A stretch of DNA of 64,000 nucleotides, taken from positions 186,001 through 250,000 of the forward strand of contig JARUHJ010000004.1 in assembly GCA_029667085.1 (NCBI GenBank), written 5' to 3'. The notes beneath the pieces are model-generated. The model was not told where the DNA came from and did not search any database. It worked only from the letters and a program-made list of their open reading frames with translations. Shown here piece by piece: positions 30,737-63,300 of this stretch. The position numbers and the translations under genes were made by a program. Within the stretch, counting starts at the first letter, position 1, and the number at the start of each line of letters is the position of its first letter. Origin of the DNA: Deltaproteobacteria bacterium IMCC39524. GTDB taxonomy: Bacteria > Desulfobacterota > Desulfuromonadia > Desulfuromonadales > BM103.

Positions 30737-30926
30737 CCTGACTCCGAATTCTTGAGAAATAACGGCAAACTTTTCATGCACACTTCCACCATGTATGAGT
30801 TTTTGATAATATAACATGCTCCGCTCGTTTAGACGATCACAACCTGTTGATAGATGAGCCTTTACCTCCACCTCAATAATTCTAAAAATCGCCTTGAGTT
30901 GTTATGATCCTCGGCCTGGAGTTTCC

Positions 30927-41400: not shown

Positions 41401-44042
41401 TTGCGGTCGTGACCGCCAGTTCGGGCCCATGGCATCAGGGGCGGAGATTGGCCGTCAAAAGTTCCACCGCAGGCGCTGCCGGCATGGCAGGTTGCACAGT
41501 CGGTTGTATTTGGATCGCTCCACTTGGGCATGACTTCACCCGCTTCGCCATCATAACCATGACAATTCAAACAGATGTCCGCGGTATCGGAGACAAGGGT
41601 GCCATCGCCATGAACCCCGAGCAATGCCGAGTTGAGAGTAAGCAGGCCATCGATATGACCGGCATTGGTACCGGTATCGGCACCCGTATCATGACAATCG
41701 GAGCAGTCAAGCTGAGGGCCTAAAGGATCTGAAACGTGCCGGGTATGCGTACCAGAAGAAATCACAGTGCCATCAAGGAGAGGTCGGCCACCGTGGCAAG
41801 AGTCACATTCCATGGCGCCAGCCACGTCCCAGTCGGCGGACAGGCCATTACCGGCGGGAAGGGTCGTAGAAGTCGCATCGTGGCAGTAGACCGAGCAGGT
41901 GCCGTCGCCGTTGGAATCGTAAGTTTCACCAGCAAGGGCATTATATAGAATTGTCGCGTTGTAAACGACATCCTGCACACCGTTGACGTGCTGACCGCCT
42001 GCACGATGGTCGGTGGCGTTGGCAGTCAAGGTGGTCGCGTCGATGGCGGTGTTGGCGTGACAGATGTTGCAGTTGGTACCGATAACAACCGAATTAAAAT
42101 GAGCGTCATGGACCTCCCAGGTGTTGTCGTTTATCGTCCCTGCAGGGTTCATGGAGGCGGTATCATTACCATGGCAAGTCTGGCAACGGTCAGTGGGAGT
42201 CTTGCCAAGAATCGCGCTGTTTCCACCATTCCAGTTCGGGGTCGTGACCAGACCGGCGTCGGTGTTACGCGTTGAATCGCCGGTACGAGGGGCTCCGGCG
42301 GAGTGACAATAGATGTCGGTGCAGCTGCCATTAACACCTGGGTTGTATGTACTCGTCGCGATGACGCCATTGTAGGTGGCAATCTTATCGAAGATTACAT
42401 CATTAAAGGTGCCGGCATTGTTCTTCTTGTGATTGCTTAAAATATCATCGCCGGAATTGGGGCCGTGGCAGGGATCACAGGGACTATCACCGCCGCCTAA
42501 AGCCCCGTCGAAAAAATACCAACCGTCTGAACCAGGCAGCGGTGTCACGGCATCGGATTTCAGATCGCGACCGGCGTGGGCCTTATGAGGAGTCGAAGCT
42601 TCAGGCTTATAGTCACCGTCGTTGAGGTAATCGTAACCGAGCGCATTGTAGTAGGCATAGCCACCGTCTCTGGCATCATATTCTGCGGCACGATCACCAC
42701 GGATATTTTTATAGGGCGGGAAACCGTGGCATTCGCCGCAGGCCGTTTGTGATTCTGGCGCCGTAAAGCTCATGTTGACATCGGCATGGTCATGACAATC
42801 AGTACATTCAGAAGTCGCGATATCACGGTGTTGGGCTGAAACAGCGACTATGCTACCACCTTGAACATCACCGTGGCAGGCTTCGCAGAAACCGTTAGCG
42901 TCTCCGTCAGTCCTGTCTGACCAAGTAATACCGGTGTTATATGTGACTGTAAAAGGAGGAAAATTGACCAGCTTCACCGTGTTGAAGACCCGGTTGGCAC
43001 GAGTCGGCACGGCATCGAGACTCCAACCACCGTTCAGGACATAGAGGCTCGGCGTGTTATCATTATAAGAATGGCCGCCATGGCAATCGAGACAGCCTAC
43101 TCTATTGGTAGAGGCCGTTTTGCCGTGCAGCTTGTAGGTGTGGCAAGACTGACAGAGGTTGGAGCGCAGTTGCGCAGTCTCGTTGCGGTCTACACCTAGG
43201 CTGGTTGGGCCATCACTGCGCAGCAGTATGCCATCACCACCTGAGGCCCCGGGTCCATCAGATGTCGATGAGTTGGAATCGGTAAAGTGCGGACCGTGGC
43301 AGCTCGAACAGCTGACACCGCCCTCGATCAAAATTGCACTGTTGGTGTAGGGAGCAGCCGAATTGTAGTTTTGAACTTGCGCCATATTGTAGGCGGGATT
43401 TCCTGTGACGTAGGTGCTAATTTCTGCAGAATTGACTATCGGGTGCGACATCAAACCATGATTATCCCGATCGCCTATAGAAACAAAAGTGCTATGGCAG
43501 GCCACACACAATTCGTCCTCAGCCATTGGGTTTATGTTGTCAGAAGACAAACGCAGCAATTTGGGATTGGTCTCAAAATCACCATGAGGATCATGACAAC
43601 GGGTGCAGGTCACCTTGCCAGTAGAGACGTTGTACTTGCTGTACATATTCGGGTAGAGAGTACGATTTGGCTCCTTTGACCCGGCAGAGGAATTGTACGT
43701 AGTCGCAACCGCCCAGTGATGGGAAGTCTGAGCGCCAGGAAGAACACCACTGTTATACACATCACTTGCGTCACCGGCATCAAAGTGTGACGTTGTAGTG
43801 GGAGGGACATTAACCGCAGCTGTCGGATTGTATCGACTTCCTGCATTAAAGGGTGAGTCTTTTGGAGCATTAGCGTCATGGCACCTGAAGCAGACGTTCT
43901 GGCCCGCCAATTCATTGAGCGTCCCGCCACTCAGATGGCATTCAGAACAATCAAAATAGTGTGCATTTTCGTGAGCCATCGACAAAGACGGGATGGACAC
44001 AACTATCACCAACACAAGTGCTACGATCAATTTAACCTTCAT
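32493..44042 (-). CDS. Giant multiheme c-type cytochrome (CxxxxCH/CxxCH domain family), 3849 aa
   Basis: The protein has a signal peptide (LVLVIVVSIPSLSMA) followed at once by heme sites CSECH and CFRCH. By eye I count about 54 CxxCH motifs, plus longer variants: CX3CH (CSVYCH, CTNACH, CNTSCH, CTNNCH), CX4CH (CTDIYCH, CASIDCH, CGTNYCH, CTNVNCH), CX6CH, CX8CH, CX10CH and CX11CH. Residues 1-2390 are a chain of repeated Geobacter CxxxxCH...CxxCH modules. About 2400-2990 is almost heme-free and holds fibronectin-III-like units (DLTSHLGDIPGRIKLTW, GALNLWWTNAEDHSMY, DLSVRSRPKSGTVTLRW). The C-terminal 850 residues carry about ten more hemes. AGGAG precedes the ATG. It is probably extracellular or outer-surface and conducts electrons to external acceptors; no anchor or sorting signal is visible at the C-terminus. 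Confidence 0.95.
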   Translation of the reverse strand: MKVKLIVALVLVIVVSIPSLSMAHENAHYFDCSECHLSGGTLNELAGQNVCFRCHDANAPKDSPFNAGSRYNPTAAVNVPPTTTSHFDAGDASDVYNSGVLPGAQTSHHWAVATTYNSSAGSKEPNRTLYPNMYSKYNVSTGKVTCTRCHDPHGDFETNPKLLRLSSDNINPMAEDELCVACHSTFVSIGDRDNHGLMSHPIVNSAEISTYVTGNPAYNMAQVQNYNSAAPYTNSAILIEGGVSCSSCHGPHFTDSNSSTSDGPGASGGDGILLRSDGPTSLGVDRNETAQLRSNLCQSCHTYKLHGKTASTNRVGCLDCHGGHSYNDNTPSLYVLNGGWSLDAVPTRANRVFNTVKLVNFPPFTVTYNTGITWSDRTDGDANGFCEACHGDVQGGSIVAVSAQHRDIATSECTDCHDHADVNMSFTAPESQTACGECHGFPPYKNIRGDRAAEYDARDGGYAYYNALGYDYLNDGDYKPEASTPHKAHAGRDLKSDAVTPLPGSDGWYFFDGALGGGDSPCDPCHGPNSGDDILSNHKKNNAGTFNDVIFDKIATYNGVIATSTYNPGVNGSCTDIYCHSAGAPRTGDSTRNTDAGLVTTPNWNGGNSAILGKTPTDRCQTCHGNDTASMNPAGTINDNTWEVHDAHFNSVVIGTNCNICHANTAIDATTLTANATDHRAGGQHVNGVQDVVYNATILYNALAGETYDSNGDGTCSVYCHDATSTTLPAGNGLSADWDVAGAMECDSCHGGRPLLDGTVISSGTHTRHVSDPLGPQLDCSDCHDTGADTGTNAGHIDGLLTLNSALLGVHGDGTLVSDTADICLNCHGYDGEAGEVMPKWSDPNTTDCATCHAGSACGGTFDGQSPPLMPWARTGGHDRKDADNGAYPSGYRAAEADCLTCHVDDSPNHWDRTSYASSADELDLLLLYNTAGFAPAPYVGQEDQYCANCHGDAPSRNHPTHVAQNADNQNMATHKGKKCVACHNVHGEEFNLTMIWSSPSDQIPHDQTSTGKYAAGNVVFTNRTDFTGGNQNSYDEDDNWPDGVDNVAILESNADDICAVCHSVAAGIDHNNIDNISSNSSHASLPDQLGTDCFECHLAHNSADPTDVFKPGAGTSCTGCHGYPPPIGAHLLHSATTNDDGTDDRSDCAYCHGADVLSYTYAVGEFNHNVSRAYRQDVLNTTIGFNNAATLTDNTDDTCTNACHNTDLSDGTWAGDANGLDCDKCHYYSNSPSGPANDNHGSVGDGRAESISLSHSEHFEAGKVCGDCHDMTSSEYNSGILGNSIPGPLAHINFNSGVIDSIAYYNGAALAEPNEAGFDEGGGVRDVLPALGYDDLNTCSSATTGCHATGAAEWYTPIDDGNAGCLQCHTDTLDTNFNPTSGLHNNTAPLTVTGNAHDGSFYNGSTLAVPADCVTCHTTDPSSGHMDGNLLGTQAVIDLAIGYNATNLTCNTSCHLADKNGTSWAYKWSLTAYSNAGDGAECQNCHGVWDDFRAGVNHRGQVLATDPQPKNTHGNGTLGCKDCHALQAATGYTYTPLTADWNDNDPGQTGLTAETSNHGDGLITLNYNGFTFGRDGGTLSGCLPCHSPQYDGINPGQFSFTTTSWPLDQVLGDTLASTCYQCHGGQHTGPAQNSFWPYGDGNEQNNAEDNNSGAHNTHILELARVVYPSDVGANDTEMITNLLTDNTLHPGTSEEKQKELCSYCHVTPNLVGDSGHNDGLPADVNNNNFYFMVGKTLDGDGVYYNSSAIVSLQDTCASIDCHFNKDTINDVYGWYDGNDGDCIMCHVDVTDGSVVDSNGGTHVAHMNSAVLGTTANFGMTIACSDCHGPGTVSWDSNAPTTSDGVAPTSNHIDGTFAVEGGDKIDGSTYVYTTDVGCGTNYCHNDGNGGAPAYDTSPDYRWGVGLTDCDICHADPPAATAAHTDHMTSTTYVPGGCGECHTAADDIKHIDTKVDFGGAITDPLNNSGWDNTCTNNCHASALGGTLWSSTTVVNCVDCHAGTFVGGNNWRGITGKNYNSVSGLHATTASNVTSHGENPPDIYCVDCHLDYDAAPPSHVDTVWEDDLTSNGETRFLNSATMTYGEQAPNSSTCSGTGTALGSCHSDGGNWFRLWSTDADVDYVASPDPSQAVCNVCHGTYSSIANSTGWREGTVHFRSGSGANELKGDGSHTPDDPNQCEACHGYDSAISHEVANTITFSGSGTTFTLASGATGWYCTNCHDDRSAEVAYNTGTHTFLDSLAFPASINYVAGTETPEGGCTSCHGQDESWPLLASRDEADWPNRDGKHTEHVHAIAAHMGADNATNRDNTCNYCHENHGGSGPTHDDSALGYPDYMPSADWAFTDMFGVDDTDVIVNYANRGSTAVAPYEEVTCTNVNCHFSNSYTPQWYDDVYGPEQITDLTSHLGDIPGRIKLTWTSPGGDTNYPNTTAYKYDVRYSDDGGSVDWSADYNSATNFVGGLPITYLRGEATELMVDNLDPAKSYRFEIKAQDTAGNWSPVSNTATDVLSPAADQVAPDFYGIDSVKRGDEGGALNLWWTNAEDHSMYNMATLAMKPITYDIWWRDENVDGDLDMDNPTHGPQVTGFTGTAYEIEGLVNQDTYQVGVRACDAETPKNCDDNTIIVKGTPTKVPDTPLSIDIYTSEGSLVMPIDGIPAGSPTGPTAFGEGAAGITFYAPAAGAETRYYVDSFSAYIDPGNTSQTIYAQAGVWTGSSFVSGGAMGQSAFSKRSPKLATFKIADTGGVIVPNGQSIAVRLTTETSSGNTANVEYGSGTTGGSATIGSRFINTVPAAVTGAAQLNPGEAIVQISWTPGLLDSDGLDNATEDPIHFDVYGTDTGGAPYEYVIAEELDFATNNIEWNTQADGITGGTLGVLIRAGDGYEHTPVEIPVLPQTTADPWDYVAPDKITDLSVRSRPKSGTVTLRWTTPGDDTYNNGRASAFDIRYLDSDIALTDYNSATVFKRSPAPDFGGHINELEVTGLLPDTPYWFAMKTMDEAGNLSEKSNIVGPVNGGPRCGMCHTTGPSVVESEGNHKLHGYTLNDCTKCHGAVSANYGLDHQDGQLTMGYLQDGPVTPTINGAIITYYNASGVIMYQDTDGFGGFGDGSYNSVGVGIDDGGCFNFGSQGLFGCHGLAGEDPDGAGSQYPLYNTPIWLKSANLDCGRCHGNPNRTTDLYGRDYDSTVLYNAVQDQIIGSPGADNRGGWDYNSANVDERKHIGQHEKHLNYSFRFSKGDSCNLCHPGHYDLSQVEELDGKHGDMIVDVELDTIAAGPDAYYAEGTTGVAGSCGNMDAYRCHPYDETPLWDNQDNFPCIGCHTMGGVDNIYNIGHLSDEVGSLVVDPLEQNSYEGNPGNCTWCHFAGHPRDDVNGTALILPNNALVGVNYASEGIHLRKQPGGTGGGHSVYQTQAELCWGCHDAQTDQVSEWYADDGPGGTPNNNLNTVSLTAGDSNYNYGYLNQLNWIGATWTSDKFAYKTGLIMSTHSTNTGGTSLVYNSIINDTNNGNTSIDVWSEDLDTVGNLQCHNCHDVHDMNFAENDKMNGPPYLRGSWVRNPYPEDGAPQSGTDFSAGQTNNNYGAVPRAGSGYNQSGGFQIDQNNPDATKGLSLSNSAGICTLCHGTVVNTMDYTSDNGGDGLWMTAGKNGHSNSALGGTPATSGEASDILNFTNAGGRHTISGTPPPELTANYADPQNPSMGYQSVNIADGATNRQVDGFRSVYKGTYGWLIEPKIDANYAYASYSWGATQDNGTINQGYHSFTCSKCHNPHASRLPKLLITNCLDTKQNSWDDGKVISGTSGGETLSPNADNNNKSFSNLTSAQNCHRLGDPAQNGGQGGTGGGWNLVTPRPKML

Positions 44043-47485: not shown

Positions 47486-47563
47486 GAAATCGGTGACAGG
47501 AAATCGGTGACAGTATACTTATTTAGGCTCTCCTTCGGTTAATTAGTATACTGTCACCGATTT
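47486..47563. repeat. REP palindrome 4 with a partial duplicate
   Basis: A full palindrome lies at 47501-47563 (AAATCGGTGACAGTATACTT...complement), preceded by a truncated left arm GAAATCGGTGACAGG at 47486-47500. It sits exactly at the point where an IS110 transposase frame is cut short and supplies that frame's last codons (SVTVY, stop). Confidence 0.88.
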
Positions 47564-47848
47564 CCGATCATTCTTCTTCTTGGCCGCTGTTATTGCTTTG
47601 AGCATCTCTGGATGGGCGACCTTCAGTTCAACCGCATACGGCTTGAGAAAGTCGTAGATCCAGCCGGTGAAGAGGGTCGCTTCCATTGCACCGATCCAGG
47701 GGCCAGAGATCTCCGCTTGCCATTCCCGTAGGGTCTGGCGTTCAGAGCGGACGGTTCCATGCTGAACAGTCTTCCCGGCCACCGTCTTGATGCAATAAGC
47801 AATGGTTTTCTTGTGGACGTCGAGTCCGATGTAGTGAATACTTTCCAT
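47543..47848 (-). pseudogene. Truncated IS110-family transposase (N-terminal fragment)
   Basis: The first 97 residues match an IS110/IS1111-type DEDD transposase: IHYIGLDVHKKTIAYCI with the first Asp, then EATLFTGWIYDFL and AHPEMLKAITAAKKKNDR. Full-length members have 300-400 residues and continue after KKNDR with a conserved Asp; here the frame runs into REP 4 and stops. AAGGAGG precedes the ATG. The 3' part is not visible on the other side of the REP, so the element is dead and its remainder deleted or displaced. Confidence 0.88.
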
Positions 47849-48271: not shown

Positions 48272-48883
48272 TTGAAAAAACCGCTCCTTATCTTTACCGC
48301 TCTGGTTATTTACGGTTGTGCCAGCCTGCCACCCAGCAATAAACCGACACTGCTCCATGAGGAATCTGAGCCCAATCTCCTCACAAAACAGGAGTTTATA
48401 GACAGATCCGTTCAATCGGCCCTACTGATTTACGAAGGCATGCGTACCATCAGCGAAGCGGCCCAAAAATATGCACTTGATAACAACGACACGCTACCTA
48501 TCAGCACCCCTCAAAAACCTGTGAAGGAACTGCTCCTGGAGGGGGGGTATCTCAAGTCGTGGCCGACGGTTCCGCCTTTTGCATTTACAGACCCAACCCA
48601 ACTTGAATTGAATTACGCGAACGGATACGACGATATGGATGGCACCGGCGCACCAGACGATGTTATTTTTTTACAGGACGTAAAGATCGAGGTATGTAAA
48701 GAGTTTATTCGACGTTATTCCAGCGCCGGCCCCGATGACATTATTTACAACTACAAGGCTAACAAGGAAAAGTATCCAGGAGAGGTTTTTGGCAGGCACA
48801 TAAAAATCTATGCGATCAACTGGCCTGGTGAAGAGTATATCGAATATTGCGATATCGAATGGGTGATGCAGTATAATGACTAA
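48272..48883 (+). CDS. Lipoprotein, paralogue of the one at 30131
   Basis: A 203-residue lipoprotein starting at TTG with AGGGG about ten bases upstream: MKKPLLIFTALVIYGCAS, a lipobox ending in Cys. It is colinear with the 30131-30736 protein, with identical EWVMQYND C-terminus and conserved KEFIRRYS, NGYDDMD..GAPDDVIF and YPGEVFGRH segments. Two Cys residues (EVCKEF and EYCDIEW) are conserved between the copies and could form a disulfide. It lies 211 bases upstream of the Dlt-like operon in the same direction and might be co-transcribed. Confidence 0.8.
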   Translation: MKKPLLIFTALVIYGCASLPPSNKPTLLHEESEPNLLTKQEFIDRSVQSALLIYEGMRTISEAAQKYALDNNDTLPISTPQKPVKELLLEGGYLKSWPTVPPFAFTDPTQLELNYANGYDDMDGTGAPDDVIFLQDVKIEVCKEFIRRYSSAGPDDIIYNYKANKEKYPGEVFGRHIKIYAINWPGEEYIEYCDIEWVMQYND

Positions 48884-49094: not shown

Positions 49095-49343
49095 ATGAGC
49101 GACCAAGAAATTATCAGTAATTTTATCCACAAGCTTCTCAGAGACCACGACTATGTTGATGAAGTGACGACGTCAGCATCGCTTATTCTTAGCGGACTGC
49201 TTGATTCACTAGCCGTGATCCACATTGTTGTTTTTCTGGAAGAGCAATACGGCATTGATTTTTCCGATGTCTACTTTGACCAGGCCAGCTTCGACACGAT
49301 CGATCAGATCTTAGACTTCGTGAAAATTAACAGAAGACCATAA
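49095..49343 (+). CDS. Acyl/aminoacyl carrier protein (DltC-like)
   Basis: An 82-residue acidic carrier protein. The phosphopantetheine serine is S38 in GLLDSLAVI, and the tail DVYFDQASFDTIDQILDFV resembles DltC (EFDRD..NT...I) more than fatty-acid ACP. It should carry an activated substrate from the adenylating enzymes encoded downstream. A TATAAT box lies at 49041-49046, and the binding site (CGGA) is weak. Only four bases separate it from the next gene. Confidence 0.87.
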   Translation: MSDQEIISNFIHKLLRDHDYVDEVTTSASLILSGLLDSLAVIHIVVFLEEQYGIDFSDVYFDQASFDTIDQILDFVKINRRP

Positions 49344-49347
49344 AGCC

Positions 49348-50577
49348 ATGAATCAAAAGATTTCTTTTGACATTGAACTCAGTCAACGCATCAATCAGTG
49401 GTTTCAACTGATCCCAAAGGGCTGCAAAGCACATCACGTCAGGGAGATGATGAACGAACTCGAGTGCACTCCCGGAGACACGGTTCTCGACCCTTTTTGT
49501 GGCGAGGGATCCACTCTCATCGAAAGCCAGATTGCCGGCTTGAATGCCGTAGGCTTCGAAATCAATCCCTTTCTTCATTTTGTCAGCAAAACCATAACCA
49601 CCTGGGATATTGATCTAGACGAACTGGATCGACAAAAAGACCTGGTTATTAACCAATTCCTCTGCCGCTCCAAGGGGGCCACTCTTGCCACACTCGAGCA
49701 GCTTGGGCTTGCCATACCACCCATCCATAAGCCTTTTTCATGGTGGCGAGAGGATATACTTGTCAATCTCCTGATTTTGAGCCAAGCCATCAATCAGCAA
49801 GCGACAGACCCAATCGTTCGCCATTTTCTACGGCTCGCCCTGGCAAGCATCCTGGTTCCGGAACTTTCCAACACCAGACTTGAAGGGCATTTGCTTCTTT
49901 TAGTCGAACGTCAGGATAATTCACTGGACGTACTGAAGAGTTTTACCAATAAAGTTTCTACGATGATCATCGACCTTGCAGCGCTTGCAAAAACTCCCTT
50001 CAAAAAAACGACTCAAAGTTACCTTCAGGACGCAACCTGCCTGGACAACCTCTCTCTTGAGAGTGAAATCAACTGCGTTATCACTGCCCCGCCTTATCCG
50101 GCACGCTTTAGCTATGTCTGGAACACGCTCCCACACCTCTATTTTTTCGGTTACCACACTTCCCCCCGTGAGCCTTCGGCTCTTGACGAAAAAGCTCTCG
50201 GAGGGACCTGGGGCGATGCCACCTACAAACTCATGCGCGAACCGGTCGCCGTTGAGCACAGTAGCGTTGCAAAACATATCAGCCCTATCGCTGACCAGTT
50301 TCGGAAAGAAGATCCTCTAGCTGCCAATTACCTTATTAAGTATTTCAATCTGATCACTCGCCACCTCATTGAACTCGACAAGCTAGCGCAGCGTAATTTT
50401 CGCGTCGCCTACATGGTCGGCTCTGCAGAACTGGGTGGAACACTCATCAACACAGGGCAACTGCTTGGATCAATCCTCGACGACTTCGGTTACAGCATTC
50501 GTAAAATCCAGGACTGTGGAAACTATGTTGCAGGTCGCTCGCAATACACTGAAAAAATCGTTTACGCATGGAAGTGA
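49348..50577 (+). CDS. DNA-methylase-fold SAM-dependent methyltransferase with APPY motif
   Basis: A 409-residue protein. The SAM-binding motif I is D48-PFCGEGST, followed by LIESQIAGLNAVGFEINPF, which is the layout of N6-adenine/N4-cytosine DNA methylases and of related RNA methylases. The catalytic motif IV, normally D/N/S-PPY, reads A247-P-P-Y250 in VITAPPYPARFSY, so the residue that holds the target amino group is replaced. The C-terminal half has no recognisable target-recognition domain. Embedded in an aminoacyl-activation operon and without a restriction enzyme nearby, it may methylate a small molecule, carrier-bound substrate or nucleic acid. Its end overlaps the next gene by ten bases. 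Confidence 0.82.
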   Translation: MNQKISFDIELSQRINQWFQLIPKGCKAHHVREMMNELECTPGDTVLDPFCGEGSTLIESQIAGLNAVGFEINPFLHFVSKTITTWDIDLDELDRQKDLVINQFLCRSKGATLATLEQLGLAIPPIHKPFSWWREDILVNLLILSQAINQQATDPIVRHFLRLALASILVPELSNTRLEGHLLLLVERQDNSLDVLKSFTNKVSTMIIDLAALAKTPFKKTTQSYLQDATCLDNLSLESEINCVITAPPYPARFSYVWNTLPHLYFFGYHTSPREPSALDEKALGGTWGDATYKLMREPVAVEHSSVAKHISPIADQFRKEDPLAANYLIKYFNLITRHLIELDKLAQRNFRVAYMVGSAELGGTLINTGQLLGSILDDFGYSIRKIQDCGNYVAGRSQYTEKIVYAWK

Positions 50578-52172
50578 AGAACTCCGCACCAGACCAAAAG
50601 AATAATCTCGCCTACGACTTTTTCAGTCACGCGTGCCGCTCTGCCGATCGCACAGCGGTCTGGGTGAATGGTCAACTCTGGAGCTACAAAGAGCTGTCCG
50701 TACATGTCTCTCGGCTCGCCGGATGGCTCCGCTCCCGCTTTCCTGGTGGGGGCAAGAACATCGGCATACTGGCGAACCGCAGCGCAGAAACATACATCGG
50801 CCTGCTTGCTGTGCTGTGGTCCGGCAACACCTACGTGCCACTCAACAATAAATTACCGGCACCTTACCTTAAAAGCCTGATGCTTCAAGCCGATGTGGAG
50901 AACCTGGTTGTGGACAGACAAACGCTCCCCACACTCACTGATCCATGCTTCAAAGAAAATCATGCGCTGACGGTGATCTCCCCATTAGAATTCCTCAAAG
51001 CACCAGTCGAACTTAACCTGGTGAGCCCAGATACAATTAAATCCGTGCGCACCCTTTCGGAGCCAGTGGCCGTCTCCGCAGAGCAGACCGCCTACATCAT
51101 CTTCACCTCTGGCAGTACAGGCGCTCCCAAAGGGATTGCTCCTAATGTCGCTAATGTCGCCTGGTTTCTGGAGGCCACCCAGGAGCGTTATCAACTCCAA
51201 CCGGACGATCGCATTTCGCAGGCCAATGATTTGTACTGGGATCCTTCGGTGTTCGACCTATTCAGTAGCTGGAAAGTCGGTGCCGCAACCTATGTTGTCC
51301 CAGACAGACAACTTGTTGCGCCTCTGCACTTTATACGTGAGCACGCCTTGACTGTTTGGTATTCAGGACCAGTCCAGATTAATTTTTTAAATAAAATGCA
51401 TCTGTTAAAAACAGGGGTTTTCCCATCACTGCGGCTATCACTCTTTGTCGGCGAGCCTCTCCTGAAAGAAGCCGCCGAAAGCTGGCAGAAGGCCGCCTGC
51501 AACAGCCTGATCGAAAATGTTTACGGCCCCACAGAAACAACTGTGGTCTGCACTGGACAATTGTTCAGTGACGACCCGGCCTGCATAACCCCAGAGCGCG
51601 GTTATCTCGCAATCGGAACCCCGTATCGAGGAGCTCAGATCAGAATCCTCGATGAGCAACAACGCACTTTGGCCGAGGGGCAAATCGGGGAGATTGCCAT
51701 TGGTGGTCCCATGGTCACTCCCGGCTACTGGAAAGCGCCCGAGCTGACGACGGGCAGTTTTGTCTCGCTCCCGGGGTCAAAAGATCAGTGGTATCTTACC
51801 GGTGATCTTGGGTACCGCACCACACAGGGTGTATTTCACTTCGTGGGTCGTAGAGACAATCAGTTACAGGTGCAAGGCATGCGGATCGAACCCGAAGAAA
51901 TCGAGTCCCATCTCCGTAAAATTACTGGCTCTGATGAAGTTGCCGTGATCGGCTGGCCGGCGGAGAATCTTTTGATCACTGGCCTTACAGCCTTCATCAG
52001 CACACCTAAAATGGATCTTGACAACATTCGACGGCAGCTTAGAAAGACTTTGCCTGCCGTCATGGTCCCCAACAGGATCGAAGTTCTCACTCAATTACCG
52101 CGCAACCAGAATCATAAAATTGACCGCAAGGCTCTCTTGCAGTTGCTCAAAGAAAAGGGGGCAACGGCGTGA
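50568..52172 (+). CDS. Amino-acid adenylating enzyme 1 (DltA-like)
   Basis: A 534-residue stand-alone adenylation enzyme. Core motifs are present: A3 FTSGSTGAPKGI (about residues 179-190), A4 WDPSVFD, A5 ENVYGPTETT, A7 YLTGDLG, A8 GRRDNQLQVQGMRIEPEEIE and A10 QNHKIDRKAL with catalytic K517. The Asp in the A4 motif implies an alpha-amino group on the substrate. No carrier or condensation domain is fused, matching DltA. It overlaps the methyltransferase gene by ten bases and the second adenylating gene by four, so all are translationally coupled. Confidence 0.9.
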   Translation: MEVKNSAPDQKNNLAYDFFSHACRSADRTAVWVNGQLWSYKELSVHVSRLAGWLRSRFPGGGKNIGILANRSAETYIGLLAVLWSGNTYVPLNNKLPAPYLKSLMLQADVENLVVDRQTLPTLTDPCFKENHALTVISPLEFLKAPVELNLVSPDTIKSVRTLSEPVAVSAEQTAYIIFTSGSTGAPKGIAPNVANVAWFLEATQERYQLQPDDRISQANDLYWDPSVFDLFSSWKVGAATYVVPDRQLVAPLHFIREHALTVWYSGPVQINFLNKMHLLKTGVFPSLRLSLFVGEPLLKEAAESWQKAACNSLIENVYGPTETTVVCTGQLFSDDPACITPERGYLAIGTPYRGAQIRILDEQQRTLAEGQIGEIAIGGPMVTPGYWKAPELTTGSFVSLPGSKDQWYLTGDLGYRTTQGVFHFVGRRDNQLQVQGMRIEPEEIESHLRKITGSDEVAVIGWPAENLLITGLTAFISTPKMDLDNIRRQLRKTLPAVMVPNRIEVLTQLPRNQNHKIDRKALLQLLKEKGATA

Positions 52173-53746
52173 ACCTGCTCACTCCCTTTCACGAACACGC
52201 CCTCACGTCCCCAGAGAGCCTCGCCCTGTCCGTTTCTGGCCTGGAGCTATCTTACCAACAACTATCTGAAAAGATCAGTCGCATCGCAGGCTGGATAAAG
52301 GCAAATGCAGGGTCAAGCAACCCACGTGTCGGCATTTTTTCTTCGCGCAGCATCACAGCCTACACCGGCGTTCTGGCAGCAAGCTACGCCGGCGCCGCCT
52401 ATGTCCCAATCAACATCAAGGCCCCGCTCAACTATCTCAACGAAACCTTGCGATCAGCGCGACTCGATATCTTGATCGTGGACCGGACCGGGGCAGAAAT
52501 CCTAGAGCGGTTGCTCCCTGATGGTCTGCCGGACCTTGTCCTCTCACCCTGTGATCTACCACCCGTAAGTTCACATATCAAGATTTCCGGCCCAAACGTG
52601 CTTTATTCACTGGCTCCTTTGAGCCAACCAGCAGCCTGCAATCTTCACGACGAGGCCTACCTGATGTTCACCTCGGGGACCACAGGCAAGCCGAAAGGGA
52701 TTGTCATCACGATTGAGAACATCCTGCACTTACTGACCACATTACAACGCCGCTACCACTTCATTCCGAAGGACCGTTTTTCCCAAGCCTTTGAGTTGAC
52801 CTTCGACCTGTCAGTATTCGACATCTTCATGGCACTGCGCGCCGGGGCCTCACTGCACGTTATTCCTGAGACACACATGTCAACACCGGCACATTTCATT
52901 CAGCAGCACCAATTGACCGTCTGGTTTTCGGTCCCTTCGTTGATCGGCATGCTCAAGCATGTAAAGCTGTTACGCAGCAACATCTTCCCGTCTCTTCGGC
53001 TCTCGCTTTTCTGCGGCGAAGCGCTTCCGGAAGAGAGCGCACGAGACTGGCAGGAAGCCGCGCCTAACAGCCGGGTAGAAAACCTCTACGGCCCGACCGA
53101 AGCCACTGTCGCCTGCCTGCAGCAGGATTGTAGCTGTCCGAACGCAGTCACACCCGACCGCGGCACTATTGCCATTGGGCGACCATTTGATGGGCTGACC
53201 ACAGGCATCGTTGATCAGGAGGGGCACTTTCTTCCTCCTGGAGATCACGGTGAACTTGCCGTTTGCGGGCCCCAGGTCGCTACAGGTTACCTCGACAACG
53301 AGGAGTTAACCCGACAGCGTTTCCCATACCTCATACACCCCGAGCTCGGTTCTTCCCGTTGGTACCTTACAGGTGATCAGGCCTACATGGATGATGACGG
53401 GACCTACCACTTTCTCGGGCGGATAGATAACCAGGTGCAGCTTCGTGGCCAGCGCGTGGAACTGGATGCGGTTGAATACCACCTGCGGACTGTCAGTGGT
53501 TGCAGCAATGCGGTGGTCATTTTTCTTGATCCACTCGAACTTTGGGCTCATGAGATAATCGGCGTCATCAGCAGCAGCCCTCTTAATAGCCGAGAAATCC
53601 GGACACAGCTGGGAAAACTCATACCCGCCTACATGGTACCGAAAAGGATCATTATATGGGAGGAGCTTCCACGCAATGCGAATGGTAAAATCGACCGCGT
53701 TGCCATAAAACGCAAGTTGTCAGCGTACCAAGGGTCGTCATTATGA
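52169..53746 (+). CDS. Amino-acid adenylating enzyme 2 (DltA-like)
   Basis: A 525-residue paralogue of the preceding enzyme. A3 is FTSGTTGKPKGI, A4 FDLSVFDIFMAL (very DltA-like), A5 ENLYGPTEAT, A7 YLTGDQA, A8 GRIDNQVQLRGQRVELDAVE and A10 NANGKIDRVAI with K507. It differs from enzyme 1 in the A4-A5 pocket, so the two probably activate different substrates for the single carrier, or one is specialised for loading. The start overlaps the previous stop (ATGA) and its end overlaps the membrane-protein start in the same way. Confidence 0.9.
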   Translation: MNLLTPFHEHALTSPESLALSVSGLELSYQQLSEKISRIAGWIKANAGSSNPRVGIFSSRSITAYTGVLAASYAGAAYVPINIKAPLNYLNETLRSARLDILIVDRTGAEILERLLPDGLPDLVLSPCDLPPVSSHIKISGPNVLYSLAPLSQPAACNLHDEAYLMFTSGTTGKPKGIVITIENILHLLTTLQRRYHFIPKDRFSQAFELTFDLSVFDIFMALRAGASLHVIPETHMSTPAHFIQQHQLTVWFSVPSLIGMLKHVKLLRSNIFPSLRLSLFCGEALPEESARDWQEAAPNSRVENLYGPTEATVACLQQDCSCPNAVTPDRGTIAIGRPFDGLTTGIVDQEGHFLPPGDHGELAVCGPQVATGYLDNEELTRQRFPYLIHPELGSSRWYLTGDQAYMDDDGTYHFLGRIDNQVQLRGQRVELDAVEYHLRTVSGCSNAVVIFLDPLELWAHEIIGVISSSPLNSREIRTQLGKLIPAYMVPKRIIIWEELPRNANGKIDRVAIKRKLSAYQGSSL

Positions 53747-55269
53747 AGCCGCCACGCTTTTCCCTTGTTCCACAGCTTGATCACTCCCGGCGATGGGTCT
53801 CCTTTGCCCAGACCCTGCCCGGGACACTCGTTATAGTTGCCCTTTTCGCCTGTTTACTTTTCCTTCACAGCGTCTCGTTGTGGTGGCTCATTAGTTTGTA
53901 CCTGCTCGCCTTCAGCCTGTGGCCCGGGCAGCGCTGGCCGATTCTGCTCTTGTCCACATTGAGCTTTCTTCTGTTCGGCCCTGTCGACATCCGTTGGGAT
54001 CGCATCACGAATATTTTCAGCGAGGCCGGGATATCTTGGCAGATTACTAATACACCTGAAGGGAGTGCCTTTATAGGAGCCGCCATTCTGTTTATTTCCT
54101 TCTGCATCTGGCTGGCACGAAGGTTCTCAAAGCAACTCCAACGACCGGTTCTAGCCTTAACGACCTTTTATCTTGGCTTGATGGTGATCGCCTCCTACGC
54201 ACCCCTCCCGCAATCTGTTTTGGCTTTTATGTGGGCCTTCATTACAGTCTTGAGCCCCTATTTCTGGTATCTTTGCTACTCCCTTAAAGAAACTCGGTCA
54301 CCGGCCCCCAAACCACTCTACCTCCAATTCGGCCACTACCTGCCGTTTTGGTCGCCGGCGTCGATCCCCTATCCCAAGGGGGCAAGCTATCTTAAAAAAA
54401 TCGAAGCCAAAACCACCGAGCAGTTCGCGATTTGTCGACTTAAAGGACTTAAACTGCTGATCTGGGCGCTGTGGCTGAGCATTTTCGCACTGGCTATCAA
54501 CGTGATATTCTACGGTTACGGTGAATTCCTGTTCGGTCGACTGCAGTTCAAAAGCGAGCTCGGCAGTATTCAATTGTTTTTTGACGGTAATTATCTAAAA
54601 ACGTTATTCACCCTTCCCTTCGAAACATCCTTGCCACGCTATGAGGTGGCCTTTCGCCAGGCAGCACTTGGCAACCCGCTACCCTGGTACCTGAACAGTT
54701 TTCTCACAATTGCCCATTTCCTCTACGATCTGCTTTATGTTGCTTTTACCACCCACATTATTATCGCAACCATTCGTATGTGCGGCTTCAATGCCCTGCG
54801 TAATACCTATCGCCCGTTAGCCTCGAAATCCATCGCAGAATTCTGGAACCGCTATTACTATTATTTCAAAGAACTGCTGGTTGAATTTTTTTTCTACCCT
54901 GTGTTCTTCCGTTATTTCAAGAAGAACCCCAAGCTTCGGATGTACGCAGCCACCATGGCCGCAGCCTTTTTCGGAAACTTCCTGTTTCACTTCATGCGTG
55001 ACATCTGGTTTGTTGTTGAACTTGGTTTTTTTGAAGCTGTGGCAGCCTTCCACACCTATTTTATCTACAGCTTTGTGCTGGGCAATGTCATCTTTCTCTC
55101 TCAAGCGCGCCTGGAAAAGACGAGTCAACAAGTGGCCGGTCCAGTCTCACGTTTTTTCGCGCCTGTGCGCGTCCTCGGCTTTTACTGTTTGCTAACGATC
55201 TTTGTCGACTTCCGTCGTGAGAGCATCTCTGATAATATAGCCTTCCTGATGTCCCTGTTCCCTTTTTAG
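53743..55269 (+). CDS. MBOAT-like membrane protein (DltB-like)
   Basis: A 508-residue integral membrane protein with about 11 hydrophobic segments, longer than a typical 400-residue DltB. The stretch FWNRYYYYFKELLVEFFFYPVFFRYF followed by AAFFGNFLFHFMRD resembles the MBOAT core, with H416 as the likely catalytic histidine. MBOAT enzymes move acyl groups from a carrier across or onto the membrane. With the carrier and two DltA-like enzymes upstream, a DltB role is the best reading. There is no DltD homologue next to it; the helical-repeat lipoprotein after it may take that part. The overall similarity is weak, hence the moderate confidence. Confidence 0.68.
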   Translation: MKPPRFSLVPQLDHSRRWVSFAQTLPGTLVIVALFACLLFLHSVSLWWLISLYLLAFSLWPGQRWPILLLSTLSFLLFGPVDIRWDRITNIFSEAGISWQITNTPEGSAFIGAAILFISFCIWLARRFSKQLQRPVLALTTFYLGLMVIASYAPLPQSVLAFMWAFITVLSPYFWYLCYSLKETRSPAPKPLYLQFGHYLPFWSPASIPYPKGASYLKKIEAKTTEQFAICRLKGLKLLIWALWLSIFALAINVIFYGYGEFLFGRLQFKSELGSIQLFFDGNYLKTLFTLPFETSLPRYEVAFRQAALGNPLPWYLNSFLTIAHFLYDLLYVAFTTHIIIATIRMCGFNALRNTYRPLASKSIAEFWNRYYYYFKELLVEFFFYPVFFRYFKKNPKLRMYAATMAAAFFGNFLFHFMRDIWFVVELGFFEAVAAFHTYFIYSFVLGNVIFLSQARLEKTSQQVAGPVSRFFAPVRVLGFYCLLTIFVDFRRESISDNIAFLMSLFPF

Positions 55270-57384: not shown

Positions 57385-60300
57385 TTATAGTGATCCCGGA
57401 GGTTTTGCGCTCCAAGGGGTGACGTTGTTCCAGCCGTCACCGGGCCCGCCTGTTGCCTCACCACTTCCGAGACGGTGGCAGTTCTGTGCCGAACCTGCCT
57501 GGGAAATAACAACACCGTCATTATCCCCACCTGTTACGCTATTGCTACCACCGCCGTCGCCCCCAGACAGACCACCTGAGGGCCTGTTGTCATCCCAGGT
57601 GTTGTGCTTGGTGTCGAGGCAGTTAGTGATCATCAGCTTCGGCAAGCGCGAAGCGTGCGGATTGTGACACTTGGAGCAGGTAAAGGCATGGTAGCCCTTG
57701 TCTATTCCGCCGGTGGCCTGAGTCACTCCCCAGTCGAAATCAACATAAGCATAGTAGGTTCCATCTACTTGCGGCAGCACGCCATAACCTTTGCCGCCGT
57801 ATGCTGAACGGAAACCGCTGACCCGGGTAGTCGTGGACCCATCCTCGCCGACGTTCGCATATCCCATACTCGGATCTGCTCCATCATTGTATTGAGTGAA
57901 AGGCGAGGGCGGTACACCGCTCGGATTGCGGATGGCGTAGCTCAGGATGTTGGTAGTAACGGCATCGTCAGCAGTACCGCCGAGCGCTGCGTTGGAGTGA
58001 CCATTGCGATTTTGGCCACCGATCCAAAGTCCAGTGACGCCATTATCTGCAGTCATATCCATGCCATCGACACCATTCGCGCCGTGGCACAGCATACAGA
58101 TTCCGGCCGAGTTCCCGACAGACAACCCCTTGGTGGGTGGCAAGCCACTGGTATAATTGTTCTGATCGATCTGATAGCCCCCGGGATTGTTGTACATCGT
58201 GCCACCACGCGGAACCGCCATATACTCGTTCTCGGGGGCATAAGTAGAGCTGGAGAGCGGTGCGCCATCTTCGGGATAAGGGTTACGTACCCAGCTCCCG
58301 CGCAGGTACGGATTACCGCTCATGGTGTCACCGTCAGCAAAATTCATGTTGTGAACGTCGTGGCAGTTGTGGCACAGGATATTAGCGACAGCGTCAGGAT
58401 TTTCTTCCCATTGACTATCCGTAGCATTCCAGGTGAGGTTACTCTGGCCGCTTGCCAGATTAGTCGAGTGCGTCGACTGGATTTTGCCGGACTTGTAGCC
58501 AAAAGCAGCCGTACCACTGGTCCACTGAGCCGTAGTCCAGTCACTGGTTTGGAACGGCGCGGTACCGTTTGACAAACTGCCATAATTGTAATCAACGGTC
58601 GGATTGACGATCGGGTTGGTGGCGGCATTCTGATTGCCGTCGTCAGCATTCCATTCGGAAATGTTATTGGCATCGTGGCAGCCCCAGCAAAGTTGAGCCT
58701 GAGTCGTATAAGGTGCACCAGTTCGACCGAGGTTGCCCGGATCCCGACGCAGGTGGATGCCACCCGATTTGTAATTGATACCAACCTGCGGGTTGTTGGG
58801 CAGGATAATCGCGGCACCACCCACATCATCGGTCGGGTGCCCGGCAAAATGACACCAGGTGCAGTTGCCCAGAAGACCTTCGGTGAAGCCATCCATATTG
58901 GCAGTATTGTCCTTATCTAAGGTAACACCTCCATTCGGGTCGGTGAAATGGCCAATATTGGCAATATCATTGCCCATGGTGTGGCAACCGATACAAGGAA
59001 ACTCAGCATTCGTATCCCAAACTGGGGCTTCATTATTAGGATGACAGTTAAACGGATCCATATTGAAGCATGTCCCGGCCGTACCTGAACCGGCCGAATT
59101 GTAATGCGCACCAGCTCCGGCTGCGGTCGTATCCAACTGGACATCAACGTTACCGTCACCATGCTTGCCGTCCAGGTCGTCAATATCCGAATAATGACCT
59201 TTGTGACAGAGATTACAGCTATCACCCTTACTGAAACGGAAGCTATAATTCAGGTGTTTTTCGTGTTGACCGATATATTTGCGCTCATCCACGGTGTTAG
59301 CAGTGAGCGGATCATCGTCCCATCCGCCGCGGTTATCAGCACCCGGCGCGCCGAGGATCTGGTCAGGGACCACCCCGGCTGGTTTTGTAGGACTATTATA
59401 GAGGGTACCGTCAAAATCGCGACCATAGGGGTCGAATTGCTGATTGACACCCGCGGTCTCATCACGATTGGGATTACCGTGACAGCGGCCGCAATCAAGG
59501 TTGGCAGCGGCATCCCAGGTCGGCGTATCGAACAGCGGAAACTTGTTTGCGCCGCCGCCATCGGGATCTGTGCCTACCGGGCCGTGACAGCCGCCAACAC
59601 CCAAAGCGCCGAAATTACTACAGCTGCCGTTGTCTGTCGAGTCAGGGGCGACATTCGCATAGTCCCCGCTGCCGAAACCACCGAAGCCATTGGTGTCCTG
59701 GTACAGGATAGCAGTATTCAAGGTCCCGTCATCAGTGTAGTAAATCGTTCCAGTCGGCTCGTCCAGATACGCCGCTTCGTGAGCACCCCCTGGCCCATAG
59801 CCCATGACGAGTTTACCGTCCTGATGCCATAGATCATAGGAAGTCACAGGAGTGGTCCCGTCGTTGTGACATTTATTGCAATCGGTCATGGTGCGCCCGT
59901 GCAGCTTGTGGTTGCCGGCCGATTCAACAACGCTCGGTCCCGTGGTGTGGCACATGCCGCAGCGCGGGCCGGTTGTGTTGGTTGCGATATTTGACAACGG
60001 CGATTTAAGATCCTGCTCGTCAACCGCCTTGATCGCGAAATCGTAACTGACCTCTGGTGTCAGACCAGTGACTTCAAAATCCATAACGTGATAACCAAAG
60101 TCCGGGTAAGGCGGGTTGGGTACCAAGGTCGCACTGTTGAAAGTTGCACCATCGCTGATTCCGGGTGCTCCCGTCGGCGAATAGCGAATTTCAAATTTTG
60201 TGGCACGACCGTTGTTCATGTAGTCGTCGCCCGGGCAGGTCCAGCGCAGCAGGACCGATCCGCTCTTGGGCCGAGCCAGGACAGACAGATCGGTAATCTG

Positions 60301-63300
60301 GCTTGGGGCAACCTTGTCAATCGCGGTTGCCGTACCAAGTATGCCGGAGATATAGACGCTATGCCCAAAGCCGTCACCAGGTCTTATTTTGACCGCGATA
60401 TCACCGCTGGTGATGCCATCGGCCTGAGTGTCCCACGAGTAGCTATAGTTGGGGCCCGTGGCGACATAATTTTCGGCAATCACGTAATCCCAGGGACCGG
60501 TTGGGCCATTGTTCGAACCGTAAATATCGAAATGCACCGGGTCTGTCGTCGCGTCCGGATTTGCATCGGTTGCGGGAATACCGTCAGTGTCGACTCCGTC
60601 GTGCGTCCAGCTCATATTCACAATGGCGCCGTCAAGGCTTACAACCGGAGTTATATTATCGGGGGCAATGTTGACCTTGCGCTCACCGACATCAGCGTCG
60701 CCACGATTTGCCGCACTACCCCATCCGCAGTTGACAGCGGAGGACGCCGTCAACTTAATGGCGAGACTCTCGCCAGAAGCTACGCTGACGCCGCTGGCAT
60801 CGGAAAACTTAAAGGTATAGGCTCGTGCAGAACGCTTACCCGGGGTAAAGGTGACTAATTTAGCGGAACCGTTAAAAGTGGTACCGTTCCAGGTCCCAAG
60901 CTCACCCGTGACCGGGACAGGAGCATTGCCCGGATCAATATAAACGGTGAAGGAACCGGTGTAGTAAATCCTCGGAAAAGTTTCTACTTCGGTAATAAAG
61001 TAAAGTGGTGCAGCAGTGGAGAACGTGCCGGTCTGTGCCGTTCCCGGCGTGCCACTATTGAACATGGTGACAACTTCGCCTCCCCCCCCAGGAACGGAGG
61101 CCGCATTACTGACATAGGTAAAGAACTCTTGTGGCACTTCGGGAACTTTTTTAGGCGTCACTTTGACGATCGCCGTGTTTGTATCGCAAGTACCGTGCAT
61201 ATCACAGGCACGCACACCCAACTGATAAGTGATATCGTTGGTAACAGTCGTAGAACCGTAGGTTCCCTCGAGCTCTATCTCGGTCCCGGTAAACCCGGTG
61301 ATGATAGGAGCATTAAGGCCTGTGCCATCGGCCATATCCAGGTCGCCATCCAACTCGGACTTTAAATAGATATTGTAGCTGATCGGCTGTTGCAATCTAT
61401 TTGCCTGCACAGCATCATCCATGATGTACATCGAGTGGTCTTCTGCAGCCGTCCACCAGAGGTTGATTGATGCACCCTCGTCACCCGGGGTCGCCTTGTC
61501 GGCACCATGGAACATGGGTGCTTCTGTGTCATCATTCGGTGCAACTGGTCCTGCTGTTGCCGGTGTTGCAGACCAGAGGCCTTCTGTGTCCTGCGTGCGA
61601 AGTGCGACATAGTAAGTTTTGCCAGGATCCAGGTTTTCAATATTGACTTCCGTCGGCTCACCATAGACATGCGTTGCCGGCAAACCACCGACATAGGTTG
61701 CCGCATCGAAGTTGCCGGCATTGATTGCAGAATCACTGATGCGCATGTCGTAAACGTAAGCAGTGGAGTTAGCTAGGCCAGCATCCATCCCAGGCGCATT
61801 GAAGGTCACCTTGAGCGAATTAGGGTTAGGCCCTGCAACAAGTGTCAGAGGACTCGACGCTGCATCGGGAGCTATGTTGCTGCTTGTATACCAGTGCGGG
61901 GTGTAGCCATTGTCGAAATGGCAGTTGATATTCGAACAGGTGCTGTTGCCGTTAAAGACGCCGTCAGTGTCTACAGCGAGACCGGCGAGAGATCGACCGA
62001 TCGAGTTGTAGAAGGTCGTCGTGTTGTTGGGCAGGTTGACCCCGTTGCCGTTGTGATCACCAACCTCGTAGGACGACTTGCCGGCATTGTAGGGATGACA
62101 GAAATTGCAGGCGTCCGTCTGGCCGAGACCGAGACCTGCAGCGTTCATCAATACATCCATATGCCTGGTGTGCATGCCCGCATCATTGTCTGGGTCGGCC
62201 TTTAGACCTTGAGGCCAGTAGTTTCCGCTAGCACCGTGACAGCTGTCGCAACTGCCGCCACCTGCTGCCACAACATCAGTACCTGCTACAGTCGCCAGGT
62301 TAAAAGTCGAAGCCGGGAAGTCATGAGTCCCATCAGCGGTCGTGGCGCCGTTGTGACAATCGGTACAGCCTGAACGCCCACCGATATCGTGCTCATTTGC
62401 CAAGACGCCACTATTATTCATGGTGATAAAGCCGTCACCGTGAAGCGTGCTTCCGGCTTCAATTGCTTTCCAGTCGTTGCTGCCGCTGGTCCAGGGGTAC
62501 TCAGAAACGGTGGTGCCACCAAGAACGTGACAGGCGTAACAGTCGAAGCCGAGGTTGATCGGTCCCGGATTGTGAGTGCCGGAAGAACCACGGGTTTGAT
62601 TTTCCTCATGACTTGTCCCTGCGCGCCAGCCGCTGCCGTCACTACCAGTCGCCCAATAGCCGTGACAACCGGCACACTGCAGGTTACCAGCTGTGGTATC
62701 GCTATTTTCGTGCCAGGTACGAGACCAGTCACCGCCGTCAAAGTGACAGCTTGACAGGGTACCGTTTGGTGAACAGGTCGGCTTGGCCGCATCGGCGTAA
62801 TTAACCTCCGCTGCAAAATTGATCACGGCGTTGGTCGCCGAGTTGTAGGTCATGCCCCAATTACCATCTGCGTGCGCGGTGGCCGGACTGGTTGGAACAG
62901 CGCTGTGACAGGTTTCACAGTCGCCCGTGGAACCGCCACCGTTGTAGAGGAAGTTGTCGTCGTGAGTCACTCCTGAAACCACCGGTACTTCATCGTGCAG
63001 ACCGGTTTGCGCCAGGTAGTTGTTGCCCGAGGCGCGCCAGTTGTTACCACCAACGTAAGAACCTGAATGGCATTCGGTGCAGTCTACAACGGTTCCGCTA
63101 TTCCAAAGCGTACCGCTCGGGCTTGAAGACGCATGACAGTCGTTGGTACAGGACTGGTCCCAACCGCTGTTGCTGGCGGGAGCAGTGATTGCACCGCTGA
63201 AATCGGCATTGCTGTCGATATGAGTGCCAACGTTTGCCGCCGTATGACACTCATTACAGCTGCCCGGCACGTAGGTGGTGTTGTTGATGTGCGCGGTATG

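Follow-up and report, generated by a model that had tools for sequence, protein, structure and literature searches.

The glycylation of lipid A in Vibrio is carried out by AlmEFG, which combines an adenylation enzyme, a carrier and a membrane transferase and puts an amino acid onto a Gram-negative envelope; AlmG has an acyltransferase fold other than that of MBOAT proteins, and AlmEFG handles one amino acid. Another of the closest described systems is Dlt (DltA, DltB, DltC, DltD and DltX) of Gram-positive bacteria. Here we describe a related gene set in Deltaproteobacteria bacterium IMCC39524 (assembly GCA_029667085.1, contig JARUHJ010000004.1, positions 186,001 to 250,000 of the forward strand); this whole stretch of 64,000 nucleotides is called the window below. 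The set encodes a small carrier, two stand-alone adenylation enzymes (A1 and A2) and a membrane protein that we call MEM. We propose, with moderate confidence, that it is a carrier-dependent trans-membrane aminoacylation module, in which MEM, as a divergent MBOAT, would move carrier-bound amino acids straight to an acceptor in the envelope.

In current models, bacterial MBOAT-based envelope acylation runs via an acyl-tyrosine shuttle and an SGNH transferase (PMC12148441). With DltX and with PatA-type MBOATs, an SGNH protein receives the acyl group via the tyrosine of an FxYxxF motif at the C-terminus (PMC12148441). MBOAT-SGNH pairs, PatA-PatB among them, have the C-terminal FxYxxF shuttle and an SGNH partner and use acyl-CoA (PMC12148441). 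MEM shares the MBOAT core and a conserved histidine with them, but has a carrier and no such motif. The dltBAC operon of Dickeya also joins an MBOAT, an adenylation enzyme and a carrier in a Gram-negative bacterium and is linked to polymyxin survival, so that the first-pass annotation of this DNA went too far in treating D-alanylation as a Gram-positive matter (PMC3544676). The likeness is by description and not by DltB sequence, and this operon differs from our locus in having one adenylation enzyme and a reported dltD/pbpG gene (PMC3544676).

Like Dlt, our locus has stand-alone adenylation, a small carrier of the GLLDSL type and an MBOAT nearest to DltB, and the pocket letters of A2 are DltA-like. 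Unlike Dlt, it has two adenylation enzymes for one carrier, its hosts are Gram-negative, MEM is far from the DltB model, the MEM loci lack the FxYxxF tyrosine peptide, and no SGNH or DltD protein was found nearby by a weak test. Judged by these comparisons, the module would work like the front half of Dlt with a DltB-like MBOAT core, and it fails the Dlt profile cut-offs and lacks the shuttle motif.

Gene organization and distribution

Five open reading frames (ORFs) were found exactly where the first-pass annotation had placed them, all on the + strand and separated by a 4-base gap followed by overlaps of 10, 4 and 4 bases. Such a one-strand chain of one short gap and three short overlaps is beyond chance. 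L-numbers and G-numbers denote the loci and genomes of this analysis; L009, L010 and L011 are also numbered L014, L015 and L020, respectively, and were counted once.

49095..49343, + strand: carrier protein (acyl carrier protein, DltC-like), 82 aa, with GLLDSL
49348..50577, + strand: type II-like amino DNA methyltransferase, between the carrier and A1, 409 aa
50568..52172, + strand: stand-alone adenylation enzyme A1, 534 aa
52169..53746, + strand: stand-alone adenylation enzyme A2, 525 aa, GTG start
53743..55269, + strand: divergent MBOAT-fold membrane protein (MEM), probable aminoacyltransferase, 508 aa

The Pfam domains above cut-off in the five genes are of the adenylation, carrier and methylase types only. 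AMP-binding scored 224 and 234 bits in the two adenylation enzymes; the matches to PP-binding (21.3 bits, cut-off 20.8) and to N6_N4_Mtase (34 bits, cut-off 26.7) agree with the carrier and the DNA-methylase-fold protein read earlier from the letters. No condensation or multimodular domains of nonribosomal peptide synthetases (NRPS) were found above the Pfam cut-off in these genes.

Among 98 related genomes, a strong MEM match was found in four (the window's own, G005, G035 and G007), while two more had weak matches to other MBOAT-like proteins. The two-A form thus occurs in four Desulfuromonadales. All three other two-A loci have the order carrier-A1-A2-MEM and a TPR lipoprotein beside it, which in L011 precedes the carrier, and all three (L009, L010, L011) lack the methylase. 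The methylase resembles type II methyltransferases (MTase_II profile, 94.7 bits); at E 1e-20 none of the remaining 95 of 96 related genomes matched it. Pfam revealed no nuclease in ten neighbouring genes, no search aimed at restriction enzymes having been made. As it occurs in only one of the 96 genomes and not at the other two-A loci, the methylase was rejected as a part of the system and is a passenger. The five-gene unit of the first-pass annotation therefore does not hold for this gene: the conserved unit at the two-A loci is of four genes, and the core conserved across loci is carrier, adenylation enzyme and MEM.

A search with a four-row MEM alignment retrieved 33 relatives (L014-L046) from named genomes, including the three two-A loci already found. 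Their hosts include Gamma-, Beta- and Alphaproteobacteria, Acidobacteria, Desulfobulbaceae, Methylomirabilis, Riflebacteria and others, and the commonest form among them is a three-gene unit of adenylation enzyme, MEM and carrier. Whole-genome searches, which are free of the pattern bias of the four-row search, gave a MEM match in 14 of 395 genomes of the phylum at E 1e-3, strong only in the window's own genome, G447 and G117. A whole-genome profile search of gammaproteobacteria gave 9 of 369 genomes at E 1e-10, and six more distant matches were added.

In 42 loci examined by profile, an adenylation enzyme was detected within 4.5 kb of MEM in 36, a carrier in 38 and both in 34. This bears out the earlier view of a Dlt-like front end of adenylation enzyme, carrier and MBOAT, now as genes conserved together. 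Among the eight exceptions, contig ends truncate four loci (L017, L019, L025, L192), N interrupts one (L024) and one has a broken gene (L046); L034 and L041 are real. L194 is doubtful among the 34, its ligase resembling acetyl-CoA synthetase, and without it the count is 33 of 41. The ligase of G117 is also of a different type (23% identity). We consider it likely that the unit of adenylation enzyme, carrier and MBOAT exports aminoacyl groups.

The whole-genome profile search also uncovered a remote MEM branch with the same trio (L189, L190, L191, L193), whose MEM frames are some 570-620 aa long. In L189-L191 the trio is accompanied by a spermidine-synthase-like membrane protein, to which L189 and L191 add a TauD hydroxylase, and this branch may form a biosynthetic cluster in its own right. 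No MEM relatives were found in viral contigs or plasmids, and no description of the three-gene family was found in the open-licence literature searched.

Fold and active site of MEM

MEM has no Pfam or NCBIfam match at E 0.01 and no match among PDB sequences at E 10, and a search of PDB sequences with its profile found none either. The MEM alignment has 30 rows, leaving out L019 (a fragment), L024 (a masked stretch), L037 (redundant with L038 and L040) and L046 (an 82-residue match); counts over 33 rows include the window, L019, L024 and L037 and exclude L046. The Pfam MBOAT profile matched none of the 30 members at E up to 1, which marks divergence rather than exclusion, and no relevant Pfam family was matched by any of them. 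The NCBIfam DltB model TIGR04091 matched 13 of the 30, at best with 2.2e-6 and far under its cut-off, and did not match the MEM of the window. Ordinary MBOATs scored up to 195 bits on this model and were found in 57 of 369 gammaproteobacterial genomes at E 1e-20, so MEM is much more remote from DltB than they are. Because no member matches the relevant Pfam family and 13 of 30 touch the DltB model only far under its cut-off, annotation pipelines likely call MEM hypothetical.

The fold, as predicted, is that of an MBOAT. An AlphaFold2 model made with the 30-row alignment had a mean pLDDT of 90.2 and a pTM of 0.89, and its best Foldseek matches were DltB, PORCN, HHAT, DGAT1 and LPCAT3. In VIA-align, DltB (8jem_A) came first with Z 21.2 and a root-mean-square deviation (rmsd) of 3.9 over 368 aligned residues at 12% identity. 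MBOAT7 (18.6) and PORCN (17.6) came next, with HHAT, LPCAT3, DGAT1 and ACAT also present, and the first chain outside the superfamily had Z 4.3. A comparison of the MEM profile with 11 ordinary bacterial MBOATs by hhalign gave a probability of 97.5 and an E of 6e-12, aligned on the IAEFWNR motif that MEM and ordinary bacterial MBOATs have in common. Predicted fold and profile-profile comparison thus uphold the MBOAT-like core that had been suspected from the letters, and on the model MEM is a divergent MBOAT nearest to DltB.

His416 of MEM (54988-54990), read as the conserved catalytic histidine of MBOATs, is present in 31 of 33 members, and Asn369 (54847-54849) and Arg370 are present in all 33. 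In DltB, His336 is invariant and His289 is conserved (PMC11035591). The second position after IAEFWNR, which is the His of WH in ordinary MBOATs, is Tyr, Phe, Leu, Val or Asp in MEM; at this motif position of His289, and unlike in DltB, His was found in 0 of 33. The equivalence of the histidines was read by position after the motif rather than from superposed coordinates, and hhalign was gapped at the histidine.

Acyl-shuttle motif and SGNH partner

Sixteen of the 49 loci found with the four-row alignment belong to other MBOATs (L047-L062) and served as the control set; many are from Paenibacillus, several closely related, and they are not independent. FxYxxF was found in the last 80 residues of none of 33 MEM proteins, of which the L017 protein is incomplete at its end, and a search of 34 loci for small ORFs carrying the motif within 4 kb gave no credible one. 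Three regex hits in these 34 loci were the MEM frame of L046 itself or lay out of frame within MEM. At the control loci the motif was present in 12 of 16, in the MBOAT itself in five and in a DltX-like ORF in seven.

An SGNH partner was found at none of the 34 MEM loci by phmmer (2279 ORFs, neighbourhoods only), while the same queries found one another at 11 of the 16 controls. These queries replaced an SGNH regex, which had found only 1 of the 16 controls.

Carrier and adenylation enzymes

The putative phosphopantetheine serine of the carrier is Ser38 in GLLDSL (codon 49206-49208), and it is invariant in all four two-A loci. In NCBIfam the carrier scored best with ACP_for_OlsHI (39 bits); DltC gave 29 bits against a cut-off of 68 (NF003464), and all the models listed were below cut-off. 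The AA-adenyl-dom model gave 308 bits for A1, below its cut-off of 317, and 329.5 bits for A2, above it. DltA models gave 275-279 bits for A2, below cut-off; against TIGR01734, with a cut-off of 559.85, A1 scored 208 bits and A2 275 bits. Both enzymes and the carrier thus fall short of the curated DltA and DltC cut-offs. Both enzymes have intact A3 (TSG-S/T-TGxPKG), A5 (YGPTE), A7 (YLTGD) and A8 (GRxDNQ) motifs and the A10 lysine in four aligned copies each, in agreement with the first-pass annotation.

The substrate pocket was read by alignment to these motifs, with the pocket positions numbered as in GrsA. In the window, L014 and L015 the letters are DLFSLCLVAK for A2 and DPFVLVVVVK for A1; in L020 they are DLLSLCLVAK and DPFVLIVGGK, respectively. 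The D-alanine site of DltA includes Asp, Leu, Met and Cys, of which Cys is a major determinant of enantiomer choice (PMC8972799, PMC4176424). At these four positions A2 has Asp, Leu, Phe (Leu in L020) and Cys, while A1 has Asp, Pro, Phe and Val (Ile in L020). This comparison used the residues named in the papers and the motif position, because the DltA matches in the genomes of the control loci were all under cut-off and mostly frames of NRPS length.

In the tree of adenylation enzymes, from which L032_3022 (a different ligase), L037 and L038 were dropped, the four A1 form one clade of Desulfuromonadales (100/100) and the four A2 a second clade with full support. The two clades are sisters (92/89) and look like the outcome of a duplication within the Desulfuromonadales lineage. 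L017 and L018, which lie outside this duplication, have pocket letters that are nearly those of A2; therefore A1 is probably the changed copy of the pair. The letters differ again in other family members, and substrate choice probably varies across the family.

The first-pass annotation had supposed two amino-acid-like substrates. Since the letters of A1 and A2 differ in the same way in all four genomes, the difference between the enzymes stands, and the substrates themselves are predictions; we think it fairly probable that two different amino acids are used here.

Alternatively, the locus may be a plain Gram-negative Dlt system, in which both enzymes activate D-alanine and a DltD/DltX-like relay encoded elsewhere completes the transfer to lipopolysaccharide (LPS) or a polymer. 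The DltA-like letters of A2, DltB as the best fold match of MEM and the weakness of the SGNH test are in keeping with this. So are one ordinary PF03062 MBOAT elsewhere in the genome and the polymyxin-protective dltBAC operon of Dickeya (PMC3544676). However, Leu and Cys of the A2 copies are replaced by Pro and Val/Ile in all four A1 copies, MEM has no FxYxxF, A1, A2 and the carrier are far under the DltA and DltC cut-offs, and the MEM of the window does not match the DltB model. We regard this alternative as unlikely. Two further DltA-like proteins are encoded in the genome, among apparent surface-polysaccharide clusters as judged from sequence starts.

Neighbouring genes and the acceptor

Genes near MEM hint at LPS or polyamine chemistry. 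In L016, L019 and L024 a gene for a CptA-type phosphoethanolamine transferase lies 0.45 to 0.97 kb 3′ of the carrier gene in the same orientation; the match is 698 bits in L016 (cut-off 404), and L019 and L024 were assigned by homology. L025 has another sulfatase-superfamily protein in the corresponding place. In five genomes searched for genes of the phosphoethanolamine transferase/sulfatase type, each genome gave 2 to 7 rows. Spermidine-synthase-domain membrane proteins were found at 6 of 42 loci no more than 6 kb from MEM (L020, L032, L043, L189, L190, L191) and at 0 of 16 controls. The profile used was built from five of these six and the protein of the window, whose own copy, at 6.4 kb, is not counted. 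Amino-acid tailoring is suggested by hydroxylases of two types: TauD in L189, L191 and L192, and GntB-like, scoring below the NCBIfam model's threshold, in L027, L028 and L042.

Such neighbours would also fit the biosynthesis of a small aminoacyl product, such as a lipid, a polyamine conjugate or a signal. The MBOAT would then couple amino acids on the carrier, in some cases hydroxylated, to a lipid or polyamine-like acceptor that the spermidine-synthase-like protein makes or moves. Besides the hydroxylases and the excess over controls, the gene for this protein begins 8 bases past the end of the carrier gene in L032 and overlaps it by 4 in L043. Against this, 36 of the 42 loci have no spermidine-synthase-like protein within 6 kb, and in Desulfuromonadales these proteins accompany the TPR lipoprotein even at loci without the module (L108-L111, L118), so that the copy in the window is weak evidence. 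We consider a small product to be quite unlikely.

Genomic setting of the module

The following features flank the module in the window.

32493-44042, - strand: giant CxxCH-rich frame, read as a multihaem cytochrome, 3849 aa
44787..47348, + strand: fused MFS/spermidine-synthase-like membrane protein, which lies 6.4 kb from MEM and may be a functional neighbour
48272..48883, + strand: small lipoprotein LP48 at the module flank, with a paralogue at 30131-30871 and related proteins in L014 and L020
55309..56730, + strand: TPR lipoprotein with an arginase-like N-terminal domain, directly downstream of MEM
57385-63852, - strand: giant CxxCH-rich frame, read as a multihaem cytochrome, 2155 aa

The TPR lipoprotein, overlooked in the first-pass annotation, adjoins the module in all four two-A loci. 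In its model, residues 67-292 resemble the peptide arginase OspR (8brp_C, Z 16.0, rmsd 3.0, 189 aligned, 16% identity), and TPR repeats follow. It was considered as a dedicated substitute for DltD and rejected, being far more widespread than the module: of 136 genomes of the order, 50 had the family at E 1e-5, or 44 without six weak TPR-sized matches. At 20 loci of this lipoprotein in the order, a CxxCH-rich giant frame is present in seven, a spermidine-synthase-like gene in five and one or both in 11, and the aminoacylation module was found in none of the 20, several contigs being short. As the family is so widespread, the TPR lipoprotein belongs to an older neighbourhood rather than to the module. 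In G005 (C70:83052-83135, L008), a second TPR lipoprotein is preceded by 27 residues of MEM tail (74% identity), which suggests the vestige of a lost duplicated module.

The module is flanked by the two giant CxxCH-rich frames. A second set in the window, composed of a lipoprotein (30131-30871), a TPR lipoprotein of the arginase-like family (30894-32267) and the giant cytochrome at 32493-44042, has no module, and its two lipoproteins are paralogues of those around the module; between the two corresponding lipoproteins of the other set, LP48 and TPR, lies the module, as it does in L009/L014. The first-pass annotation had envisaged transfer to a surface acceptor, possibly the neighbouring exported proteins. 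A surface acceptor is retained in our proposal, while the link to the cytochromes is by position only and is not present in all four genomes. It would correspond to a protein aminoacyltransferase like HHAT or PORCN, which share the MEM fold, modifying the giant multihaem cytochromes or their lipoproteins in the service of extracellular electron transfer, and a fragment in L020 related to the L014 cytochrome does adjoin the module. However, L014 alone among the 33 named MEM loci, besides the window, has a frame of at least 8 CxxCH, and the L010/L015 contig has no frame with 3 CxxCH in the 13 kb seen. The seven cytochrome-bearing loci of the 20 examined in the order all lack the module, as does the second cytochrome set in the window. 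The cytochrome link is therefore limited to a part of the Desulfuromonadales copies, and modification of the cytochromes is highly improbable.

Elsewhere in the window, a fragment like an IS110-type transposase (27.3 bits against a Pfam cut-off of 29) lies at 47494-47848 next to a 30-nt inverted repeat, and a SAM riboswitch (3968-4091) and a tRNA-Thr (7958-8033) were identified.

Discussion

In the aminoacylation module that we propose, the carrier would be phosphopantetheinylated on Ser38. A2 would adenylate a small amino acid, most likely D-alanine, and load it on the carrier, and A1, the diverged duplicate, would load a second, different alpha-amino acid on the same carrier. At the cytosolic face, MEM would accept the aminoacyl group from the carrier and use His416 to transfer it straight to an acceptor that reaches the active site from the membrane or the periplasm. 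No tyrosine shuttle, in DltX or at the MBOAT C-terminus, would take part, and probably no SGNH transferase such as DltD or PatB. The acceptor would most likely be a lipid or a lipid-linked envelope glycan such as LPS, and the result a changed surface charge. LPS or another lipid as the acceptor is our tentative choice, at somewhat less than even probability.

Several observations weigh against this proposal. The MEM family is sparse (14/395 phylum genomes, 9/369 gammaproteobacterial genomes), and L034 has neither adenylation enzyme nor carrier nearby, while L041 has no adenylation enzyme nearby. Two Bosea members (L044, L045) have Ser or Thr in place of the MBOAT histidine, but adenylation and carrier genes adjoin their MEM on the other strand. 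The MEM gene of L020 is split over two frames, and that of L046 is broken. The support for A1 and A2 as sisters is just under the mark of the program. The SGNH search was weak, having missed 5 of 16 controls and covered neighbourhoods only. Its queries were genes beside the control MBOATs, of which Pfam confirms 1 of the 10 scanned as SGNH-like (L013, ALGX), two more having weak GDSL matches below cut-off; given such queries, the absence of an SGNH step is what we infer. As to the acceptor, the CptA association comes from one lineage (MEM 86-89% identical), L018 has no such neighbour although its MEM is 80% identical to that of L025, and no acceptor gene common to all loci was found.

A wider reading is that MEM founds a separate branch of MBOATs over several phyla that depend on an aminoacyl-carrier, with direct one-step transfer from the cytosol to an acceptor in the membrane and neither a tyrosine shuttle nor an SGNH transferase. 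In Desulfuromonadales one carrier and one MBOAT would then serve two adenylation enzymes that differ in specificity and write a two-amino-acid surface code; elsewhere, aminoacyl-polyamine or hydroxy-aminoacyl surface groups would be made with membrane spermidine-synthase-like enzymes and hydroxylases. We hold this to be doubtful.

The aminoacylation module proposed here would be a variant of a known surface-modification route, in which a relative of a Gram-positive cell-wall-decorating enzyme handles two amino acids on one carrier. A1 and A2 form a pair that may send two amino acids through one exporter. If the proposal is true, a carrier-coupled, shuttle-less MBOAT family would be a second solution in Gram-negative bacteria, probably ending on lipids or lipid-linked glycans, and carrier-dependent surface aminoacylation would reach beyond teichoic acids.

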